Below are positions 1,419-21,230 of a DNA stretch of 23,415 nucleotides, piece after piece (within the stretch, counting starts at the first letter, position 1; each line of letters begins with the position of its first letter). The DNA comes from a virus: positions 1 to 23,415 of the IMG/VR virus record IMGVR_UViG_3300035701_003366. One strand, written 5' to 3'. Below the pieces are notes generated by a model, which searched no databases, was not told the origin of the DNA, and saw only the letters and a program-made list of their open reading frames with translations. The position numbers were made by a program, and so were the translations under genes.

Positions 1419-2039
1419 CTATATTTGACTAGGCTTTTGGGTGCGTCGAAGTAAACTTGCGTTCATTGTTCGAAGTAAACTTGCGTTGCTATTCGAAGTA
1501 AACTTGCGCCCACTAGAAGTAAACTTGCGTTCCTCACTAGATACAGAAGTAAACTTGCGTTCTTTGTCCGACGTAGTGTTGTGATTTTCTGCTTTTGCTT
1601 CCTTAGTTGCTACTATAAGATAGTGATGACGTGCATGCTTCCATGGCATATCGTCTAGGAAACGAAGATCTACTTTGATATTATTATGAGTGGCTCCATT
1701 ATTGTCTTCTCGATCCACCTCATACGACATTTCATGCCCACGACTACCACCACAACGCGTCAACAATGGTGTATCTACTAATACGCCTAATGCTGAATAT
1801 ACAACCTTGCGACTATATCTACTGAGACGCATCATATCTTTATAAGAGAAATGCGCCAGATAGCATCTCTTGTTTTGCCTAGTGTGGTGCCAGTTGCTTA
1901 GAGCGAGTGCCACCCCAAACACATAAGCCGCCGCTTCTCCATATTTGCCTAGGAGATCCTGTCTTATCATTATGTGATTGATGTCCGCAGTTCTTGACGC
2001 GCCCGCTCGCTTGAGGTATTTACAATTATGGTCAGTCAT
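1419..2039 (-). CDS. Putative winged-helix replication initiator (iteron-bearing)
   Basis: The protein is 206 aa from the ATG at 2039; a TTG at 2051 would add four residues, but GAG lies about 8 nt before the ATG, which I prefer. The central part, with YKDMMRLSRYSRKVVYSALG followed by TPLLTRCGG and MSYEVD, has the look of a winged-helix DNA-binding domain of phage and plasmid initiators (recognition helix, then wing). The C-terminus consists of short repeats: KFTS three times, then NASLLR twice. These come from one 14-bp DNA repeat read in two frames, so the DNA is what is conserved. This mirrors lambda O, whose gene contains the origin iterons. The start overlaps the upstream gene by 8 nt. 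Origin binding is inference; a transcriptional regulator is the alternative. Confidence 0.65.
   Translation of the reverse strand: MTDHNCKYLKRAGASRTADINHIMIRQDLLGKYGEAAAYVFGVALALSNWHHTRQNKRCYLAHFSYKDMMRLSRYSRKVVYSALGVLVDTPLLTRCGGSRGHEMSYEVDREDNNGATHNNIKVDLRFLDDMPWKHARHHYLIVATKEAKAENHNTTSDKERKFTSVSSEERKFTSSGRKFTSNSNASLLRTMNASLLRRTQKPSQI
1448..1559. repeat. Five iterons, GAAGTAAACTTGCG
   Basis: Five exact copies of the 14-mer GAAGTAAACTTGCG lie at 1448-1461, 1472-1485, 1495-1508, 1516-1529 and 1546-1559, with start-to-start steps of 24, 23, 21 and 30 bp. Four of the five are followed by TT and three are preceded by TC. The 23-bp step shifts the coding frame of the surrounding gene, so three copies encode R-K-F-T-S and two encode N-A-S-L-L-R. 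Spacing near two helical turns is typical of initiator-binding iterons. I propose this as the replication origin or an autoregulatory site. The short spacers and non-identical spacing argue against CRISPR. Confidence 0.75.
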
Positions 2040-2265
2040 CGTCCATCTCAATCGTTATACCCTTAGACATAGCCTGCTGTATAAGACGTACGACCTGTTT
2101 ATACGTACCTGCCTTCTTAAGTGCTACCATTACTAACGTGCCATGAACTATGGCAGCAGCATGTAATTCTTCTGAAGACATGCCTTTCTTTTCCAGTCGC
2201 TCCATCAAGTCAGAACTAACTGGTATCCAATTACTGTCGTGCGTATCCTCTAATTTCACTCTCAT
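2032..2265 (-). CDS. Small hypothetical protein (77 aa)
   Basis: This helical, soluble-looking protein has the segments WIPVSSDLMERLEKKG and YKQVVRLIQQAMSKGI and an acidic tail MDDD. No family is recognised. Its ATG at 2265 overlaps the stop of the preceding reading frame (ATGA), and its own stop overlaps the start of the initiator-like gene by 8 nt. This indicates translational coupling in a short operon of four genes (2699 to 1419). The size, charge and position next to an initiator gene would fit a loader or copy-control accessory, but nothing in the sequence proves it. Confidence 0.7.
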   Translation of the reverse strand: MRVKLEDTHDSNWIPVSSDLMERLEKKGMSSEELHAAAIVHGTLVMVALKKAGTYKQVVRLIQQAMSKGITIEMDDD

Positions 2266-2874: not shown

Positions 2875-4365
2875 TTACATTCCACTCAAAGCCCAGCCAC
2901 CACTAGTGTCCTTGCGCGTATATGCCTTGTATGCTGCCATGGACTGCGCCACTACGGCGTCAACTTTCCTATGTTCCTCGTCCTCTGCTACTATAGGCTT
3001 GATGATACGGTATTCCTCGTCATCCCGACCTACCTTGATGGCAGATGCTGCCAGGACGTGCTGGCGCAACTGTGGATGGGCCCAATTGACGATGGCACCA
3101 GTCTTGTACATCTTATACAGGAAGGTGTCTGCCTTGACACGCTCCGCTCCCTGGCTGAATTCCTCGCACTTTACTCCTTTGAGTCGCAAGTCCTGTGCCA
3201 TCTTTACTAATTGGTATGGGTCATAGTACAAGGGTGGCTGCAACAAGCCAGCCTTGTGCAACTCAAGAATGACACGCATGACATCATTCTGGTCTACTTC
3301 TTGACCGCGTGGCTCCCATATCCTTACATCTGTGGTATGGACTACCTCTCCCTCTTTGACGCATCCTACTAAGGCAGTGCAGTCACCGTTCTTGCTGCCA
3401 TCGATGGCATAGGTTGCTTTGACTGGCAATGGCCCTTCCCTACGGCAACTGTTGTTCCACATGTCCAGTGTGATAAAGGACTCGTCGCTATCTACCCATT
3501 GGTTCTTGTGGAGGCGTAGGAAGGCATTGGTGCGCAACTGGACTTCCTGGCTCTGATAATACTCCATTGTCTGCCAGGGCATGCGAGCAGTGTGATCCCA
3601 GAAGACAAGCAGGCGATCATCCTCCAACCCATACACAGGCAAGTCGTGCCATAGCTTAACCACGCCAGGATTTAGCGTCTTCTCCGTATCATCGGCAAAG
3701 ATTCGCTTGTACATGTTATATAGCAGCAAGCTCTCAGAACGGAAGCCTGCGTAGGTCTCTACCCAGCGCATGCGGAAGCGCCGGGTGGGAGGTGGCGTCA
3801 TCTCTTCCCATAGACGTTGTAGACGTTCACCAGAGTAAGCCCACAACTCAGACCACAAGCTGATGCCCTGATTACCACCTGCTGCTCCTCTATAGTTAGT
3901 GGTAATGGCCTTGGCAACACTACCATTAGAACCATATGCCATCGTGCCAGTGGGACTTGTGGGAACAGTCCAGCCTAACGACTCAAGCGTAGGAACCATG
4001 GCAGCGAATACACGTCCAGTGCCTTGCTCCAGGTTGTTGGCAACACAGGATATCTCATTAGGACTTTCCACCTCAACCGCCACCCAGGCTCCTACTGCAC
4101 CTGCTATAGCTGTCTTGCCACTCTTCTTTGGCTGTGACCATACTACCATGTTGTATCGGCTGTAACCATTGTGATCCATCTGTAGCGCGTGGCGGAGGAT
4201 CCTGCGTTGATAGTCCTCTAACTTGATGAGACGTTTGGAGATTGGGTCTATGTAGTTGTCGCTTATCCATTGGACGGCAGGCACAGGAAGGATATACTCT
4301 GCCTTGGTCTGTGCCAGGGCATAATTGAACAAGTCGGATATGGTTGTATACTCTGCTACTGCCAT
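2875..4365 (-). CDS. terL: Terminase large subunit
   Basis: This is the ATPase-nuclease motor that packages phage DNA into the prohead. The N-terminal ATPase shows an adenine-binding-like LEDYQRRILR (residues 49-58), a Walker A variant SQPKKSGKT (77-85) and a Walker B-like ISLWSELWAY with the catalytic Glu (168-177). The C-terminal RNase H-like nuclease shows YAIDGSKNGDCTAL with Asp322, YYDPYQL with Asp382, and KVDAVVAQSMAAY with Asp469, all expected acidic positions. At 496 aa it has normal family length. The ATG at 4365 begins 6 nt after the stop of the 62-aa gene, with only a weak ribosome site, which suggests coupled translation. It lies downstream of the TerS-like and ADP-ribosyltransferase genes. 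Confidence 0.95.
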   Translation of the reverse strand: MAVAEYTTISDLFNYALAQTKAEYILPVPAVQWISDNYIDPISKRLIKLEDYQRRILRHALQMDHNGYSRYNMVVWSQPKKSGKTAIAGAVGAWVAVEVESPNEISCVANNLEQGTGRVFAAMVPTLESLGWTVPTSPTGTMAYGSNGSVAKAITTNYRGAAGGNQGISLWSELWAYSGERLQRLWEEMTPPPTRRFRMRWVETYAGFRSESLLLYNMYKRIFADDTEKTLNPGVVKLWHDLPVYGLEDDRLLVFWDHTARMPWQTMEYYQSQEVQLRTNAFLRLHKNQWVDSDESFITLDMWNNSCRREGPLPVKATYAIDGSKNGDCTALVGCVKEGEVVHTTDVRIWEPRGQEVDQNDVMRVILELHKAGLLQPPLYYDPYQLVKMAQDLRLKGVKCEEFSQGAERVKADTFLYKMYKTGAIVNWAHPQLRQHVLAASAIKVGRDDEEYRIIKPIVAEDEEHRKVDAVVAQSMAAYKAYTRKDTSGGWALSGM

Positions 4366-4370
4366 TGTAA

Positions 4371-4559
4371 CTATCTCTTGGGGAACTGTTTGAGCGCCTT
4401 TGTTAATGCACCTATGTTCTCAGATGCTTGGGCCGCTTTATTCGCTAGCAATCCTTGCACTTTTTCCCATTCACGCTTCAACTGCTTTACCAATGCTGGA
4501 TCTTCTATAGATACACCAATAGGTGGGACGTCAACACCCAATTTATCAAACAGGTCCAT
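4371..4559 (-). CDS. Small hypothetical protein between ART and terL
   Basis: The product is 62 aa from the ATG at 4559. The upstream GTG at 4562 is less likely, because AGGAGG sits 7 nt before the ATG, the ideal spacing. The TGA of the ADP-ribosyltransferase gene overlaps this start (TGATG). The protein is helical and charged (LVKQLKREWEKVQGLLANKA) with a Gly-Val-Pro-rich first 20 residues. No family is recognised. The position between an ADP-ribosyltransferase and the terminase large subunit would suit a packaging cofactor or an immunity or chaperone partner of the toxin, but neither is supported by a motif. Confidence 0.7.
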   Translation of the reverse strand: MDLFDKLGVDVPPIGVSIEDPALVKQLKREWEKVQGLLANKAAQASENIGALTKALKQFPKR

Positions 4560-5671
4560 CACTTTGCCTCCTTGACAGGAAACTTTTCCAACTCTGGTAT
4601 TCCTAGATATTCTAGCACTATGTGACCATGAGCATCTGTAGCCTCAACTGGCGCGATCGCACTTTTGACCTTGAACCTTCCCATAGCCAAAACCTCACCC
4701 TGTGGGAAGGTTGATATTGCATTTATGTCTAGTGCTCGTGCTCCAGGGGCAATCTCTATAATCCAACCTGCTTGGACTGATGGTACTCGTGGGCTCATTG
4801 AACCTTTGATAGTGCCATCCGCGAATTGATTACCCATCTCAGCACTGGATGTAAAACTGGTTGGGCCCATTATGTGCTCAGAACCAGGCGCAAACTCCTT
4901 CAATATCTTTGCAGTGTCCTCATGAGGTTCAATTATTCCTCGATAAATGGGTGCATCCTGAGGAATGGAGGCCTCCATAACTTCCTTCAATGTTTCCATG
5001 CGTCCTGCTACCTCAGCAGTAGTCATCTTAGTCTTCTTGATTTTCTGCCCGTCCGGTCCGAATACATTGTTGCCAGTACCCCAATACCCCTCAGATGCCT
5101 TGGCCGCCTTCTTATAGTATTTGTCTGGTACTGGGAATTCATCCCTCACGCGCCTAGCTATAGCTACTGCCTTCTCTTGCGTGCTATTTTCTGGGTCTCG
5201 GCTCAACAGACCCGCTATTTCAAATTCAGTATAGTGTCTGCCAGTTTCAGCAATAAGAGCCTTTTGCATCGCTACATACCGTGCATTTACAAATTCACTG
5301 TCCCTGTTTGCCAATCCTCTCGCGACATTTTGAATGTAAGTTCCTTCCATCAATTGCGTCCCAATACCGCGTATGCCTTGGTAATAACCCTGGGTGTAGT
5401 GAGCCATCATCTGATAAAATGCCCTAGCTTCCGGATCGTTCTCATACAAATCCATCAAACCAGATTCCTTCATGGCCGCCCGTTTTGTTTCATTGTCTGC
5501 GCCCGGAGCAACTACTGGTATGTGTGCAGCGAAACGCGCTCCTGTAGTGCCTCCTTCTACTTGCCTACCCTTGGTAGGATCATGCGTAAATTGGTCATGC
5601 ATGCCAGGAAGGTGCTTAATGGATTCTTGTATAGCATCTAGTTGTATAAGCAACTCTTGCGTGTATTTCAT
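4559..5671 (-). CDS. Phage ADP-ribosyltransferase with R-S-QxE signature
   Basis: The C-terminal ~150 residues carry the conserved marks of the R-S-E class of mono-ADP-ribosyltransferases: PIYRG with Arg244, a Ser-rich strand GPTSFTSSAE (269-278), and FPQGEVLAMGRFKV with Gln324-Gly-Glu326. The usual E-x-E is Q-x-E here, as in C3-type toxins that modify residues other than Arg. Residues 11-35 hold the tag LDAIQESIKHLPGMHDQFTH followed by DPTKG, shared with the protein at 789-1223. The middle is helical. Phage enzymes of this class, such as T4 Alt, are packaged in the head and injected to modify host proteins. The location among packaging genes fits that. It overlaps the TerS-like gene by ATGA. 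The target is unknown. Confidence 0.82.
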   Translation of the reverse strand: MKYTQELLIQLDAIQESIKHLPGMHDQFTHDPTKGRQVEGGTTGARFAAHIPVVAPGADNETKRAAMKESGLMDLYENDPEARAFYQMMAHYTQGYYQGIRGIGTQLMEGTYIQNVARGLANRDSEFVNARYVAMQKALIAETGRHYTEFEIAGLLSRDPENSTQEKAVAIARRVRDEFPVPDKYYKKAAKASEGYWGTGNNVFGPDGQKIKKTKMTTAEVAGRMETLKEVMEASIPQDAPIYRGIIEPHEDTAKILKEFAPGSEHIMGPTSFTSSAEMGNQFADGTIKGSMSPRVPSVQAGWIIEIAPGARALDINAISTFPQGEVLAMGRFKVKSAIAPVEATDAHGHIVLEYLGIPELEKFPVKEAK

Positions 5672-9726: not shown

Positions 9727-12028
9727 CTGGGCACCTGTTCAATTGATGGTATCGTATTCTGGCTTGCGAGATGTCTATGTAGTCGGGAACGTTATCCATA
9801 CCTATAAATTGCATATCATTATCAAGTGCTGCGCAACCAGTAGAGCAACTGCCGGCAAATGGGTCAAGCACCACACCACCAAACGGTGTGCGTGCTAATT
9901 TGCATAAATACTCCATCAAAGATAGTGGCTTGACTGTAGTATGTATATTGCCTTGCGCCCTTTCCTTCTCGGGCAACTTTTCCCATTCTCTATAGCTTAT
10001 TCGCACATAGCCGCAAGATGTAGAGCCAACTCGTTGCCAATAGAAATCGTCGCACCCTTGGTTGCGCTCGCTGCGTGATGCCTTCGCCGTGTAGAAGAAC
10101 CGGGAAGCGCCGCCAGTGTCTTTGTGCCGCGTCTTGGATGCTCCGCCAGCGTTCCCCCATATCGTCGTCGTGCTATCACAAGTGTCAGAAGGGCGCCATC
10201 CGTTGCTCACCCCGCTCTGCTCATTTAGCAGCCGCACGGGGCAATCCGGCGTACATTCCCACGCCTCGACCGTCTCCATGCCGTCGGGATCAGTACGGCT
10301 ACGGTTGCCCTTGCCACCACCGAATACAACCCCTGCCTCTGATTGCGGCGCGTTATCCGTACCATTCCATCGCGTCTTCACCCGCTTCGTCCCCACCTGC
10401 CTGCACTCCGGCGTATGGCTCAGCACGAGGTTGGCGGGGAAGCGACCTATTGCAGGATTAGGATCTGGCAATCCTAATCCTGCTTGTTTACTTGCCTCGT
10501 GCGTATGCTTAAATCCAGCATTCCCACCCCAACCTACCTTATCAGTCCCTATTCTACTTCCATCTATATTCAATCCGGCCACACCCCACTTAATAGCGTT
10601 CTGCGCAAAGGTTCCATCTAGTGGCTTCATAGCCAGCACAATAGGCTCCCAAGCAGGCTTGAGCGCAGTGCCATAACCTTCCCATAGTTGCGCGTCAGGC
10701 GTGGAAGGGATAGTAACATTAAGCCCACCAAGGTCTTCAGGCCCATCATATCTCCCATAATCATGGCTTGGTTTCCTCTTATTTCCACTACCTACGTATT
10801 TGCGCCCAACCACTTCTCTTTCTGCTCCTGCTTCCTTATCCATTCCCTTACTGATATCAAACGACTTTGGAAATCCCATGCCGTACAACCACATTAAGCA
10901 ATCACGTATCTCCCACCCAGCATCCTCTATGGCACACAGCAGCCGGTGGTGGGTGCGTGTACCGCCAAATGCCATAAGCATAGCACCAGGTTTGGCAACA
11001 CGTAGTAGCTCGCGCCAAATTTGAGGATCTGGTAAGGCGGAGTCCCAGCATTTGCCCATAAATCCACCATTAGGTATAATTTTAACATTCTTAGAATTGA
11101 AAGGAAGCCATAAATGGAACCAGTACAGAGAACGTGCCCCATCTGTGGTACAAACTACAAAGCGAACCCGAACAAGTTGCGCTACGGACGCCAAACTACT
11201 TGTAGTAGAGGTTGCTCTTACAAGTTTCGGGCCATCAAACTTTCCAAGGGTTGCCAAATGATCTGCCCTGTTTGTGGCAAGCAATTCTACAGGCCTCCCA
11301 GTGGAATCAAAGCGAAGCATAAGACTATTTACTGTTCCGGGCACTGTCAATATGCAGGACGCAGTCTCGGACTGACAAAAAGAATCGTTACCAAGCCTTA
11401 TGTCATGGTGTCCAAATGTGATCATCATGCCTCTGGAATCAAAGCATGGAGAACCAGACGCGAAACTGGCAAAGATAGGCACAGCAAAGCCACCATAGAA
11501 CACCTCCGCCAAACAACTATCAGGTATATCACCAACAACACCAAAGGACGGCATATCTCCCAACTTGAGAACGAAGTCGCCCAAGAATTGCTCTGCATTG
11601 GCATAAATTTCATCCGACAATATCCTATCCGCAGCCCAAAGACCGGACGTTTCATCGCTGTTGCAGATTTCTTCCTCAATGATCATTTTGTGTTGGAAGT
11701 CAATGGAACCTTTTGGCATTCCGATCCGAGATTCTATCCTACTGGTCCTAGCTTTCCTGCACAATATAGAACTGCTACTGGCTATATTCGCAAAGTCATG
11801 GCTCTTAAGGAGCTCGGCATTCCTCTTATAGAGATCTGGGAAGCCGATCTTGAACAAAGCGTCATAAACACGCTGCGAAGTGCCTTGAGTGGTATTATTC
11901 TTTGATAATCCATAAGGCGGATCTGTTATTATGGCATCCACACTATTCTTTGGCAAATCCGCTAACCCCTCCAAACAGTCGCCGGAGAACAGAGCGCAAT
12001 CGGGTCCCATATCAATCCAGTCACCCAA
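9692..12028 (-). CDS. DNA methyltransferase C with in-frame 280-codon antisense insert
   Basis: The uninterrupted frame encodes 778 aa. Residues 1-42 are the start of a DNA methyltransferase ending at the catalytic TDPPYGLS. Residues 43-322 are the antisense translation of a homing endonuclease gene and resemble no protein. Residues 323-778 resume with FMGKCWDSALPDP, AFGGTRTHHRLLCAIEDAGW and, near the end, VKPLSLMEYL and VVLDPFAGSCSTG, where the usual GSGST has Cys for Gly. Relatives read DPPYGLSFMGK without a gap, so the ancestral enzyme had about 498 aa. The start is TTG at 12028 with AGGTG five bases upstream. The region 10020-10470 is near 60% GC against about 45% around it, which suggests a foreign origin. 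Activity of the interrupted protein is doubtful but not excluded. Confidence 0.85.
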   Translation of the reverse strand: MGDWIDMGPDCALFSGDCLEGLADLPKNSVDAIITDPPYGLSKNNTTQGTSQRVYDALFKIGFPDLYKRNAELLKSHDFANIASSSSILCRKARTSRIESRIGMPKGSIDFQHKMIIEEEICNSDETSGLWAADRILSDEIYANAEQFLGDFVLKLGDMPSFGVVGDIPDSCLAEVFYGGFAVPIFASFASGSPCFDSRGMMITFGHHDIRLGNDSFCQSETASCILTVPGTVNSLMLRFDSTGRPVELLATNRADHLATLGKFDGPKLVRATSTTSSLASVAQLVRVRFVVCTTDGARSLYWFHLWLPFNSKNVKIIPNGGFMGKCWDSALPDPQIWRELLRVAKPGAMLMAFGGTRTHHRLLCAIEDAGWEIRDCLMWLYGMGFPKSFDISKGMDKEAGAEREVVGRKYVGSGNKRKPSHDYGRYDGPEDLGGLNVTIPSTPDAQLWEGYGTALKPAWEPIVLAMKPLDGTFAQNAIKWGVAGLNIDGSRIGTDKVGWGGNAGFKHTHEASKQAGLGLPDPNPAIGRFPANLVLSHTPECRQVGTKRVKTRWNGTDNAPQSEAGVVFGGGKGNRSRTDPDGMETVEAWECTPDCPVRLLNEQSGVSNGWRPSDTCDSTTTIWGNAGGASKTRHKDTGGASRFFYTAKASRSERNQGCDDFYWQRVGSTSCGYVRISYREWEKLPEKERAQGNIHTTVKPLSLMEYLCKLARTPFGGVVLDPFAGSCSTGCAALDNDMQFIGMDNVPDYIDISQARIRYHQLNRCPVGKAAQNLEGR
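11052..11080 (+). promoter_or_regulatory. Promoter for the homing endonuclease
   Basis: TTGCCC (11052-11057) and a consensus TATAAT (11075-11080) are separated by exactly 17 bp on the plus strand and point at the endonuclease gene. The -35 box lies in methyltransferase codons and the -10 in the insert, so the promoter spans the insertion junction. Transcription would start near 11087, about 27 bases before the ATG. An AAAGGA ribosome site (11100-11105) sits 8 nt before that ATG. Confidence 0.6.
11063..11902 (+). mobile_element. 840-bp homing endonuclease insert in methyltransferase C
   Basis: The insert separates DPPYGLS from FMGKCWD codons of methyltransferase C. It is 840 bp, or 280 codons, and leaves the host frame open throughout. 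Outside the endonuclease ORF it holds only about 50 bp upstream and nothing downstream, too little for a group I or II intron. The insert ends show no intein splice residues. A near-repeat, ATAAATCC on the left and ATAATCC on the right, flanks it. The exact edges could shift by a few bases. Confidence 0.75.
11114..11905 (+). CDS. Vsr-like (EDxHD-type) homing endonuclease
   Basis: This is the only plus-strand gene. Two N-terminal Cys4 modules (C8, C11, C30, C34; C51, C54, C74, C78) are followed by a basic linker and a Vsr-like nuclease: SQLENEVAQELLCIGINFIR with Glu152/154, FIAVADFFL with Asp185, VLEVNGTFWHSD with Glu195, His202 and Asp204, then MALKELGIPLIEIWEADL. This fits the homing nuclease family related to very-short-patch repair enzymes, as in I-Bth0305I. 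The 263-aa gene has its own promoter and AAAGGA site. Its codons are exactly in register with the host codons on the other strand: none of its 17 Leu or 16 Ser codons is TTA, CTA or TCA, so the methyltransferase frame has no stop. Its TGA reads as a Ser codon of the host. Confidence 0.88.
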   Translation: MEPVQRTCPICGTNYKANPNKLRYGRQTTCSRGCSYKFRAIKLSKGCQMICPVCGKQFYRPPSGIKAKHKTIYCSGHCQYAGRSLGLTKRIVTKPYVMVSKCDHHASGIKAWRTRRETGKDRHSKATIEHLRQTTIRYITNNTKGRHISQLENEVAQELLCIGINFIRQYPIRSPKTGRFIAVADFFLNDHFVLEVNGTFWHSDPRFYPTGPSFPAQYRTATGYIRKVMALKELGIPLIEIWEADLEQSVINTLRSALSGIIL

Positions 12029-15817: not shown

Positions 15818-16223
15818 TGGCAATCTCTTCCATAGCAACATCTGCGAAGTATTGCACCCCTGTAGGTATGGATGTCAAGAACCTCTTAGGCTTTGCGATG
15901 TTGTGATTGTATACCTGTAATGGCTGCTGAACTGCGATGCTATATTTGCGTATGGTTGACCGGACTTCAGGAGTGCCATGGTCTGCTCCTATCTCACTAC
16001 GCCCGTTGTCCAACCTTGCGTAATCAGATTTGTCTGGAAAGACACTGACAACATAAAGTAGATCCCCAGACTGGAGATCTTCATCATGAGCAAACACTTC
16101 CTTGACATTAGCCTCTGCGCCAGGCAGTGTCATAAATAATGGCGTCAAACCCTCTTCATCAGCCACGAACCTTCTTTCCTCTCCGATCTTTTCTAGCATA
16201 ACTGCAAACATTAGGCCACTCAT
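15810..16223 (-). CDS. Hypothetical partner of the radical-SAM enzyme (137 aa)
   Basis: No family is recognised. It begins MSGLMFAVMLEKIGEERRFV, has an acidic, beta-rich core (LQSGDLLYVVSVFPDKSDYA) and a C-terminal part with PKRFLTSIPTG. It overlaps the radical-SAM stop by ATGA and the recA start by 8 nt, so kinase, radical-SAM protein, this protein and RecA are co-translated. There is no Cys cluster and no leader-peptide-like sequence, so it is unlikely to be a classic RiPP precursor. It could be a binding partner or substrate carrier of the radical-SAM enzyme; this is inference from overlap only. Confidence 0.7.
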   Translation of the reverse strand: MSGLMFAVMLEKIGEERRFVADEEGLTPLFMTLPGAEANVKEVFAHDEDLQSGDLLYVVSVFPDKSDYARLDNGRSEIGADHGTPEVRSTIRKYSIAVQQPLQVYNHNIAKPKRFLTSIPTGVQYFADVAMEEIANA

Positions 16224-17428
16224 TCTGCTTCTCCTTGGTTTTGCAACTTCTTGTCTGTTGGTTTTATCATCCTAGGGCATAATGGATCTGGGGTTGGGTG
16301 GTAAATATCCTGTAGACTTTTCTCGTGCGCATGTAACTTTTGTGCTGGGCACCCACCCTTACAAGTATTTAACCACACGCAGTTGGCACACCGCCCTTCT
16401 ATATTCTCGTAATCTACGGCTGTGAACTGACGTATGGCATTGAAAACCTGGCTGTTCTCCCATATCCACTCCAGGGAATGCTCTCGAACATTCGAGTCAG
16501 CAGTAAGGCTTTTCCAAGCTGCACAAGGGTGCACGGTGCCATCCGGTCTAACCAGGATCAGATCCTGACCCGCATGACATGCCTTAGCCTTTCCTAACTT
16601 GGCAAGGTTCTGGCTGGTTCCTACTGCTGCGTGCCTGAAATCTACTGGGCACCCAAACCGCAGGGCACACTGCATCTCCTTACGCGCAGGATCTGTCGCT
16701 TCATAGTCCATTATATCCTGCAACTTGCTAAACTCTAGTGGAGAAAGGTTGAGGACGGACCGATGAACATACCCACGCGTCTGAGGCACAAACCGTAGGA
16801 CAGACATTTTGCTGACGCCAAGTCCTTCACACAGATCTCGTACGGCTGACAGGTGCGCGTAATTCGGCAACATAGGTACAAAATGAACATTGACCCGAAT
16901 GCCGTAAGCCACTGCTGTGCGGATACCCTCTATAATAGCTTGCCAAGCACCAGCCACGTTCATGATATAATCATTCACAACTGGTCTGTGGCTATGTAGA
17001 CTGAATATGAACGTCAACCCTCTAGGAGCCAAATCCCTCATACTTCGAACATATCCCCAACTCCTTAGTCCTCGTATACCCTGATGATAGCAATCAAAGT
17101 ATCTGCTATCTGTGTTGATTACCTTGCCATCCACCACGCTGTAGTCTATATCCCAAATACCCGTAGAGTAGAACAACACCTCAGAGAATCCCAAATCAAG
17201 GGCATGCTCTATGTAATCAATCGCAAGAGGACCCAACAGGATAGGATCCCCACCACTTAGGCTAAGTGTTGTAGCGCCAAGCGCCCGCGCCTCTTCCATC
17301 AGCCGCCAATGCTCTTCTGGCGTCAACTCGTTCCGCAAGGCTGTCGGTGCCGAACCACTTGAGCAGTGTATGCACCGCACCAAGCACTTATTGCTGACTT
17401 CCAGTGATAATTCCTCGACTTGCTGCAT
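16220..17428 (-). CDS. Radical SAM/SPASM enzyme
   Basis: The product is 402 aa from the ATG at 17428 (GGAG 6 nt upstream; the TTG at 17431 is less likely). Near the N-terminus, NKCLVRCIHCSSG is the C-x3-C-x2-C motif that binds the 4Fe-4S cluster, and LSLSGGDPIL is the SAM-contacting motif, with Asp where Glu is usual. The C-terminal ~110 residues form a SPASM-type Cys domain: ACHAGQDLILVRPDGTVHPC, then CANCVWLNTCKGGCPAQ and a final CPR, enough for auxiliary clusters. Family members modify peptides, proteins or small molecules, such as PqqE or sulfatase-maturing enzymes. A phage copy next to a hydroxymethyl-dU-kinase-like gene suggests base hypermodification, but the substrate is unproven. Confidence 0.9.
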   Translation of the reverse strand: MQQVEELSLEVSNKCLVRCIHCSSGSAPTALRNELTPEEHWRLMEEARALGATTLSLSGGDPILLGPLAIDYIEHALDLGFSEVLFYSTGIWDIDYSVVDGKVINTDSRYFDCYHQGIRGLRSWGYVRSMRDLAPRGLTFIFSLHSHRPVVNDYIMNVAGAWQAIIEGIRTAVAYGIRVNVHFVPMLPNYAHLSAVRDLCEGLGVSKMSVLRFVPQTRGYVHRSVLNLSPLEFSKLQDIMDYEATDPARKEMQCALRFGCPVDFRHAAVGTSQNLAKLGKAKACHAGQDLILVRPDGTVHPCAAWKSLTADSNVREHSLEWIWENSQVFNAIRQFTAVDYENIEGRCANCVWLNTCKGGCPAQKLHAHEKSLQDIYHPTPDPLCPRMIKPTDKKLQNQGEAE

Positions 17429-17431
17429 CAA

Positions 17432-18109
17432 TCACTCCTTGTTCGCATCTGATGGCCTGTATTTGTCTACTCGATAGCATTGGTCGATGGTCAAGAAGTC
17501 ATTGGCCTGATCGAACAAGCTGGTCAGGTCACTCACCTCATAACAGGCGTAACTTATATCCTCTACATCAAAACTAGCGTCAATAGCCCGCTGCCGTACT
17601 TTCTGTATGGCGTACCATTTATCCTCGGTGTTTTGCGTATTGAACTCACTCTTTGTGCCACGTTCCTCACGTCGCTTGAGAACGTTCTCTATGCACGCCT
17701 CAAGAGGTGTATCAAGGAATAGCCACTTGTATTGTAGCCCAAATCCATTGATCTCGCGCGTCAACTCTCTATAGCGTGTCCATAGGTGGCTTACTATCAA
17801 GCCCTCAAACACAACATGTCCGAACTGGCTAAAATAGCGCACCGTGCTACATATCCAGTCCTGATTGGTAATAGTGTCGCAACCTCCGCATACATTGACG
17901 TAAGACCCGATAGCAAACATAGGAACACCACTAGGTAAGACTACACCAGTTGCTAAGGTCTTGCCATGGTGTTTTACCTCATAAGAGGATACACCCATCC
18001 CGCAGGCCTCAAGCAACTGGCGCACGATGTAAGACTTACCAGATCCAGACGTGCCACGAATGTTGATCACCACGGAGATATACCTCGGGATGGCTCCACT
18101 ATGAGCCAT
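17432..18109 (-). CDS. P-loop kinase resembling 5-hmdU DNA kinase
   Basis: The product is a 225-aa P-loop NTPase: VVINIRGTSGSGKS (Walker A at residues 19-26), then IGSYVNVCGGCDTIT (CGGCD at 74-78), HVVFEGLIVSHLW and a lid region LKRREERGTKSEF. To my knowledge the G-Y-x3-CGGCD and F-E-G-L motifs mark the phage kinase family that includes 5-hydroxymethyldeoxyuridine DNA kinases of thymine-hypermodifying phages, though homologs occur elsewhere with untested substrates. It is followed 3 nt later by the radical-SAM gene. The start at 18109 has a poor ribosome site; a GTG at codon 13 or 14 with GAGG upstream would give VVINIRG, closer to relatives, so the N-terminus is uncertain. Confidence 0.78.
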   Translation of the reverse strand: MAHSGAIPRYISVVINIRGTSGSGKSYIVRQLLEACGMGVSSYEVKHHGKTLATGVVLPSGVPMFAIGSYVNVCGGCDTITNQDWICSTVRYFSQFGHVVFEGLIVSHLWTRYRELTREINGFGLQYKWLFLDTPLEACIENVLKRREERGTKSEFNTQNTEDKWYAIQKVRQRAIDASFDVEDISYACYEVSDLTSLFDQANDFLTIDQCYRVDKYRPSDANKE

Positions 18110-19904: not shown

Positions 19905-20695
19905 TCCTTTTTGACTCTTTTGCCCGCCATTGACTTGAGGATTTCCTTAGTGTCTTGTATATTGGAGCCGGTCGCATCCATCTCAGCCCGCAACTGAGCA
20001 CCCAACGACACCAACATGTCGCCGCGAAGGCGCATAGCGTCTGTAATAGCCCGTAGCAACTTGTAGGCATACAGCCGATCGTTCTCTGCTGTAACTGATA
20101 CAAGATACTCCGGGTCAATGAGCACCAACGCCTTGATTTGTGCCTCAGTGGTCTTCTCTAACTTCATCTCCTCACGCAAGTGCAATTCCACTTTGGCATA
20201 TACAGAATCCCGAGAGGTCTTAGATTCATTAGCATCCGCCTCAGCCGATGCGCATTGCATCGCTACCCAGGCATACCGCGCAGCTTGGGTAGAGAATTCG
20301 TAGGAGATACCTGTCTGCTCTATTCCTAGCAATTCTCCAACAGTAACTTCCTTGCCTGCCAACGGGATTGTTTGCTGAAATATGTCCCTATCTAGTTTCT
20401 CTAGGTCACTTCCATTCGTTGCCATTAGTCCTCCCCTATGCGATAACTCTGAATTGAACACCAACGCATCGAACACCGTTCTACTTACCAGGTCTACCTT
20501 AGCAAACCTCTTGTATAATAAACTAGCTGCTTCTTCTGCCTTGTCCTCCTCGTGATATGACAGCAACTTGCCTAAATTGACGGCCAGAGCTATGTAGCCA
20601 TCTTCACCATGCCTATAGTACAAGTCCTGCACCCCGATACTATTGGCGATGATGTCATCGTATAGATCTAATGAGCGTGATATATTAGGCAGCAT
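19901..20695 (-). CDS. Conserved-looking phage replication-region protein (264 aa)
   Basis: The protein is mostly helical. A C-terminal region (ASAEADANESKTSRDSVYAK and then EEMKLEKTTEAQIKALVL, DPEYLVSV, LLRAITDAMRLRGDMLVSLG and AQLRAEM) resembles a pattern seen in phage recombination and replication operons, where a UvsY-like mediator or an SSB-loading role is suspected. I cannot assign it to a named family. It overlaps the HNH gene by 11 nt and methyltransferase D by ATGA, and it lies between the polymerase and SSB genes. A recombination mediator role is an inference from its place and helical build. Confidence 0.6.
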   Translation of the reverse strand: MLPNISRSLDLYDDIIANSIGVQDLYYRHGEDGYIALAVNLGKLLSYHEEDKAEEAASLLYKRFAKVDLVSRTVFDALVFNSELSHRGGLMATNGSDLEKLDRDIFQQTIPLAGKEVTVGELLGIEQTGISYEFSTQAARYAWVAMQCASAEADANESKTSRDSVYAKVELHLREEMKLEKTTEAQIKALVLIDPEYLVSVTAENDRLYAYKLLRAITDAMRLRGDMLVSLGAQLRAEMDATGSNIQDTKEILKSMAGKRVKKE

Positions 20696-21230
20696 TCTTC
20701 AACTTCAGTTCTTTCTCCCTAGCACGCCTGCGCCTCTGCGCCTCCCTCATATTGTTATGAACCTCCTCTGATAGGTTTTTACGTGCCTCACTTATCTTAC
20801 GCCTATGATCCTCTGTCAATGTCTTGCCTCTCTGTGCTTTACCCATCTTTATACGGGAAGCCATTGTAGGATGAAACCCCAATGTATTCTGGTTTCCTAA
20901 CATAGCTACGGAAAGATTCTTCCTAAACTCTTCAGAACGAACTAGTCTTCCTTTTCGACTAGCATCATACATATTATCTTTTTGCGTACCAATGAACAGA
21001 TGGGATGGGTTACAACATCTTGTATTATCGCAAGTGTGACATACTAGCATCCCATCTGGTATGGGTCCATATATTAGTTCCCACGCTACACGATTTGATC
21101 TCCTTGGGCCGTCATATTCCTTCCAATAAAACTGACCATAACCATCCCAGGAAATGCCCCGTTTCCAATCCCAACATTCGTCATCATCACCGATATTTAC
21201 CTCACCCCAAAACTTCTCTTCCTCTGTCAC
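20685..21230 (-). CDS. HNH homing endonuclease with NUMOD3-like tail
   Basis: The product of 181 aa has an N-terminal part (DDECWDWKRGISWDGYGQF), then an HNH core MLVCHTCDNTRCCNPSHLFI followed by GTQKDN, and a C-terminal DNA-binding tail with NUMOD3-like repeats (RIKMGKAQRGKTLTEDHRRK, ISEARKNLSEE). Such genes are mobile, free-standing homing endonucleases, often found beside or in phage DNA polymerase genes. It overlaps the polymerase gene by ATGA and the next gene by 11 nt, so it is fully embedded in the operon, with no promoter of its own visible. Its DNA target could lie in the polymerase or neighbouring gene of related phages. Confidence 0.9.
   Translation of the reverse strand: MTEEEKFWGEVNIGDDDECWDWKRGISWDGYGQFYWKEYDGPRRSNRVAWELIYGPIPDGMLVCHTCDNTRCCNPSHLFIGTQKDNMYDASRKGRLVRSEEFRKNLSVAMLGNQNTLGFHPTMASRIKMGKAQRGKTLTEDHRRKISEARKNLSEEVHNNMREAQRRRRAREKELKLKNAA

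Follow-up and report, generated by a model that had tools for sequence, protein, structure and literature searches.

A five-copy direct-repeat array read in two frames at the 3' end of an orphan phage gene, a candidate embedded replication origin

INTRODUCTION

The closest described counterparts of the locus reported here are the replication origins of lambdoid phages. In the lambda ori, located in gene O, and in five other O genes, the iterons lie within the coding sequence, past the part that encodes the N-terminal domain, as do the repeats at the present locus. The lambdoid iterons are imperfect inverted repeats of 18 to 19 bp, whereas the repeats described here are exact, 14 bp long, and contain a 10-bp dyad. 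Lambda O continues for ~150 residues after its iterons and is followed by P (likewise in MPK9), whereas here the open reading frame (ORF) ends. Stx phages carry six iterons, four of which are strongly bound (PMC7466680), a precedent for additional copies on the outside.

Three other systems share part of this anatomy. Iteron plasmids and phage-plasmids (P1 RepA, RK2, and F) also combine direct repeats and an AT-rich region with a DNA-binding gene (PMC5043065). Their iterons are generally helix phased, whereas the spacings here are 21 to 30 bp, the array is inside the 3' end of the gene, and the protein matches no Rep family. In the mycobacteriophages Miko and Rachaly, the parS locus lies immediately downstream of repA, which encodes a helix-turn-helix replication protein, and comprises five direct repeats (PMC7157519); we likewise find five direct repeats associated with a probable DNA-binding gene. 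The mycobacteriophage repeats are outside the gene, in phages that have parABS, whereas those described here are inside it. Finally, the rep-ori of PICI/SaPI links iterons and an AT-rich region to a rep gene (PMC6092414), much as our array is linked to a candidate one, but in PICI/SaPI two iteron sets flank the AT-rich region, whereas a single set lies on one side of it here. In the present study, we analyze this array in a stretch of 23,415 nucleotides (IMG/VR record IMGVR_UViG_3300035701_003366, positions 1 to 23,415), referred to below as the window.

RESULTS

The exact 14-mer GAAGTAAACTTGCG occurs five times within positions 1448 to 1559, with plus-strand starts at 1448, 1472, 1495, 1516, and 1546 and thus start-to-start distances of 24, 23, 21, and 30 bp along that strand. 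All five copies fall in codons 161 to 197 of a 206-amino-acid (aa) ORF on the minus strand (positions 1419 to 2039), that is, in its last 46 codons, where the gene-strand form of the 14-mer is CGCAAGTTTACTTC. In gene order, copies 1 (1546 to 1559), 2 (1516 to 1529), and 3 (1495 to 1508) are read as RKFTS, and copies 4 (1472 to 1485) and 5 (1448 to 1461) are read in a shifted frame as NASLLR. The gene strand translates as ERKFTS-VSSEERKFTS-SGRKFTS-NSNASLLR-TMNASLLR, with the copies in frames 0, 0, 0, 2, and 2. Our sequence scan therefore confirmed a sequence-only reading of this DNA, which had described five exact 14-mers, a 23-bp step that changes the frame, and KFTS peptides from three copies and NASLLR from two. 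Each unit contains a 10-bp hyphenated dyad, AAGT-AA-ACTT.

The array is the sole cluster of at least four copies of any 9-mer within 250 bp in the window, where no further exact copy of the 14-mer was found. When up to three mismatches were allowed, the 23.4 kb contained 8 matches versus 1.4 expected, a number reached in none of 100 shuffles; the three matches outside the array are scattered singles with three mismatches each. The array was absent from all fetched loci except those of the same virus, and no comparable array of five 12-mers was present in 1.6 Mb of related viral contigs. Two kinds of candidate were rejected. Three-copy arrays of AAGTTTACTT turned up at 25 genome loci and in a handful of viral contigs; we judged them to be regular tandem repeats or to stand in unrelated contexts. 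Degenerate KFT-coding arrays were found in six stretches, one from the same virus and five that were not homologous. An Rfam search gave no match.

The likeliest start of the 206-aa ORF is the ATG at 2039; a TTG at 2051 would give 210 aa. The start overlaps the stop of a 77-aa ORF lying just upstream (2032 to 2265, minus strand; no convincing family match) in the sequence ATGACTGA, as in translationally coupled operons. Over codons 1 to 160, frame 0 scored best of the three forward frames (0.016 bits per codon versus -0.43 and -0.57), at a level below the 0.09 to 0.27 bits per codon of the core genes. The encoded protein, probably DNA binding and a candidate initiator, is an orphan: it matches no family in Pfam, PHROGs, or NCBIfam, known Rep/RepA families included, and has no sequence match in the PDB. 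A winged-helix domain had been proposed for it. Both single-sequence AlphaFold2 models showed a compatible element order, helix-helix-helix-strand-strand, over positions 1665 to 1961 (minus strand), at a mean pLDDT of 35 and 40, so these low-confidence models provide only a hint of such a fold. The ORF stops about 9 codons past the last repeat copy. The product of the next gene is 144 aa long and matches no family convincingly; near its N terminus it carries a motif, KHLPGQH, that another protein of the window shares. The large terminase subunit gene (2875 to 4365, minus strand; phrog_9, E value of 8.9e-32), which served as context and as a route to relatives, is 1.3 kb from the array, and the replication genes do not adjoin the array. 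Promoter and terminator scans gave results near chance.

Beyond the array, positions 1308 to 1447 form an AT-rich stretch, a candidate unwinding element. The 150 bp at 1308 to 1457 have a GC content of 0.347, the minimum of the record (mean, 0.479), and the windows at 959 and 21736 are equally low. The AT content just after the array is 63 to 67%, versus 65 to 80% in six lambdoid controls. Palindromes had been reported just downstream of the array, and we indeed found two perfect 10-bp ones, AGAACGTTCT (1331 to 1340) and GCTATATAGC (1347 to 1356), where the density of such palindromes in the window predicts 0.1 per 224 bp. GC skew showed no clear switch at the array and is uninformative on a fragment of 23 kb whose genes almost all share a strand.

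For comparison with lambdoid origins, we retrieved the O gene of lambda, gene 18 of P22, and a number of further O genes and located their iterons from the annotation (lambda) or by direct-repeat detection. In lambda, the annotation gives iteron spacings of 20, 24, and 23 bp. The same 20/24/23 spacing was detected in P22, mEp043, Yersinia 21.09, and Salmonella 64795_sal4, and a 19/23/24 spacing was detected in Mannheimia 1152AP2, with iteron sequences that differ among the phages sharing the pattern. Three other O genes lacked the full pattern under the same detection (Klebsiella 5 LV-2017, 21/21; MPK9, 33/23; IPK, one pair 45 bp apart). At our locus, the last four copies are in the same orientation, 21/23/24 bp apart in gene order and in frames 0, 0, 2, and 2. 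These spacings are within 1 bp of 20/24/23 or 19/23/24, and the reversed order fails; random spacings match the lambdoid pattern in 1 to 3.5% of cases, a figure that applies to a match spotted after the fact. The fifth copy, 30 bp out, falls outside the pattern. Each of the six lambdoid controls that show the pattern has its iterons spread over two or three reading frames, with an AT-rich stretch beyond them on the side where we find it here; the iterons of the Mannheimia O gene also yield a repeated peptide, PEKVG.

The likeness does not extend to the protein. Its N-terminal part has no detectable similarity to O (Phage_rep_O) and no Pfam or PHROG match, and hhalign against an alignment of eight O N termini returned a probability of 0.4, with 10 of 100 shuffled sequences scoring as well. 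Since the 206-aa protein ends right after the repeats, it lacks the C-terminal domain that in lambda O binds the helicase loader, and no helicase or helicase-loader gene lies beside its ORF. The locus had been read as a lambda-O-type initiator gene carrying its own origin. The unique in-gene array, its spacing, the multiframe reading, the AT-rich flank, and the palindromes agree with that description, whereas the protein sequence, the C-terminal end, the neighboring gene, and the lack of the gene in a sister phage (see below) do not. With sequence, C-terminal domain, and neighboring gene all failing, we reject membership in the lambda O family by these tests and limit the claim to a possibly similar way of working.

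A search for relatives yielded one near-identical IMG/VR contig, 3300031999_001845 (99.99% identity, the same over 14 kb except for the left edge), which for this reason is not independent evidence. At 114 to 358 in the window, sequence shared with this contig flanks a replaced stretch on both sides, suggesting a population variant. This contig held the only homolog of the 206-aa protein in IMG/VR, and none was found in plasmids (tblastn), GTDB genomes, 46 RecA-related viral records, or 5072 ORFs of related contigs. Four matches in Microbacterium phages were discarded, having E values of 0.07 to 0.8 and lying on the strand opposite the annotated genes.

A more distant sister phage, 3300035698_022738 (96.9 kb), was found through RecA (44% identity) and the large terminase (62 to 63% identity). 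It carries PolA, SSB, exonuclease, resolvase, and small terminase genes in the same order, but a different gene set follows its large terminase gene, with neither a counterpart of the 206-aa gene nor a GAAGTAAACTTGCG array. The 206-aa homolog and the repeat were also absent from 16 further terminase relatives. Judged by these comparisons, the 206-aa gene is accessory in this lineage. The sister phage has an intergenic array of its own at ~47.77 to 47.99 kb, made of the 14-bp palindrome TCATGAGCTCATGA and GAATATAAGTG units. An AT-rich stretch comes after it, and the array is a candidate for an origin or for a regulatory role. The phage of the window encodes PolA, a gp32-type SSB, RecA, and an exonuclease and so probably runs its own replication.

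DISCUSSION

The best single explanation of the locus, mainly on anatomy, is that the array and its AT-rich flank constitute a replication origin, or an accessory one, embedded in the gene of a putative initiator, and we consider this to have a little less than an even chance of being correct. In such an origin, the 3' end of the gene would serve as the iteron array next to the stretch to be unwound. The 206-aa protein would contact the repeats with its N-terminal domain, and the hyphenated dyad suggests that it would probably do so as a dimer. Lined up on four or five copies, it would melt the AT-rich stretch and assist in loading the replisome of the phage. The chief weakness of this explanation is that our searches found no diverged homolog for a conservation comparison. 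It is also weakened by the sister phage, which lacks the gene and whose different array is intergenic and far away, by the missing initiator family match and C-terminal domain, by the distance to the replication genes, by the 30-bp fifth spacing, and by the equal AT levels elsewhere in the window.

The two reading frames had been taken as proof that selection acts on the DNA. Three of the four spacings (30, 21, and 24) are multiples of 3 and the fourth, 23, is one short, and the alternative frame across the last two copies reads QRKFTSNNERKFTSTHPKA*, ending at an earlier stop. Starting from (E)RKFTS units that all share one frame, the loss of a single base between copies 3 and 4 would be enough to produce both frames, and because a recent deletion of this kind also fits, the frame change alone is insufficient as proof. 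Five (E)RKFTS units selected as a basic protein tail would account as well for the fact that the 14-mer coincides with the R-K-F-T-S codons minus the final wobble base, which itself varies (TCT/TCG). However, random draws give three or more spacings divisible by 3 out of four in 11 to 14% of cases, and the observed spacing agrees with that of the lambdoid phages, in which steps of 3 are not the rule. The wobble bases of the four codons R, K, F, and T are the same in every copy, whereas the spacers vary in sequence and length. Codons drawn independently from the phage's own usage would give such invariance with a probability of ~1e-8, a value that overstates the case since the copies may stem from duplication, which breaks independence. 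Identical RKFTS codons beside diverged spacers nevertheless favor a constraint at the DNA level, and we regard the peptide repeat as distinctly unlikely. The array probably grew by duplication, as neighboring spacers, compared by eye, keep some resemblance (TTCTAGTG in copies 1 and 2; TTCGAA in copies 3 and 4). A neutral local tandem duplication would leave just such traces, and recent copies would be identical. The spacers have, however, accumulated substitutions and indels, whereas the five copies still agree at all 14 bases, and the related contigs hold no array of this size, making a functionless duplication improbable.

Another possibility is that the array is a binding site for the product of its own gene or for another phage protein, acting in autoregulation or as a partition-type centromere. 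A probable DNA-binding gene adjoining a unique array fits this explanation, as do its accessory status and the five repeats downstream of repA in Miko and Rachaly. On the other hand, operators usually lie upstream of the gene and not at its 3' end, and no ParA or ParB was found among the proteins scanned with family libraries (part of the ORFs of an incomplete genome, most of which may lie outside the window). We consider a binding site of this sort possible, if unlikely. Direct repeats near terminase genes might instead be bound by the small terminase as a cosB- or pac-like packaging site, since the terminase genes are in the same neighborhood. Yet the array is 1.3 kb past the large-subunit gene, within a different gene, rather than in the small-subunit gene or ahead of it, and the sister phage has homologous terminases and no such array; a packaging function thus seems very improbable.

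If the array is indeed an origin, the design of an origin inside its initiator gene is also used by an uncultured phage lineage that encodes a wide range of its own replication proteins, and it can be asked whether nucleoprotein geometry, rather than common descent, sets iteron spacing. A more specific version, in which a lambda-like embedded origin evolved independently around an initiator unrelated to O and lacking its C-terminal domain, with a 20/23/24-type spacing, appears rather unlikely; if true, it would suggest that unrelated initiator proteins stack by a common geometric rule. If the array is not an origin, the locus becomes a clear example of why a reading in two frames is not, on its own, proof that selection acts on the DNA of repeats inside a gene.

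Several other genes of the window deserve mention. The proteins encoded at 4559 to 5671 and 789 to 1223 are otherwise different but have a common N-terminal motif, KHLPG-H...THDPTK or SHDPTK; the gene for the longer one (4559 to 5671) separates the terminase genes, which adjoin each other in the sister phage. An HNH homing-endonuclease-like ORF (20685 to 21230) follows PolA, and a plus-strand zinc-ribbon ORF (11114 to 11905) lies within a long minus-strand methyltransferase ORF. The protein encoded at 17432 to 18109 matches the Pfam 5-hmdU DNA kinase family (E value of 9.4e-9), and the adjoining gene (16220 to 17431) encodes a radical SAM/SPASM protein with a 44% identical counterpart in another relative, a pair suggestive of possible phage DNA hypermodification.
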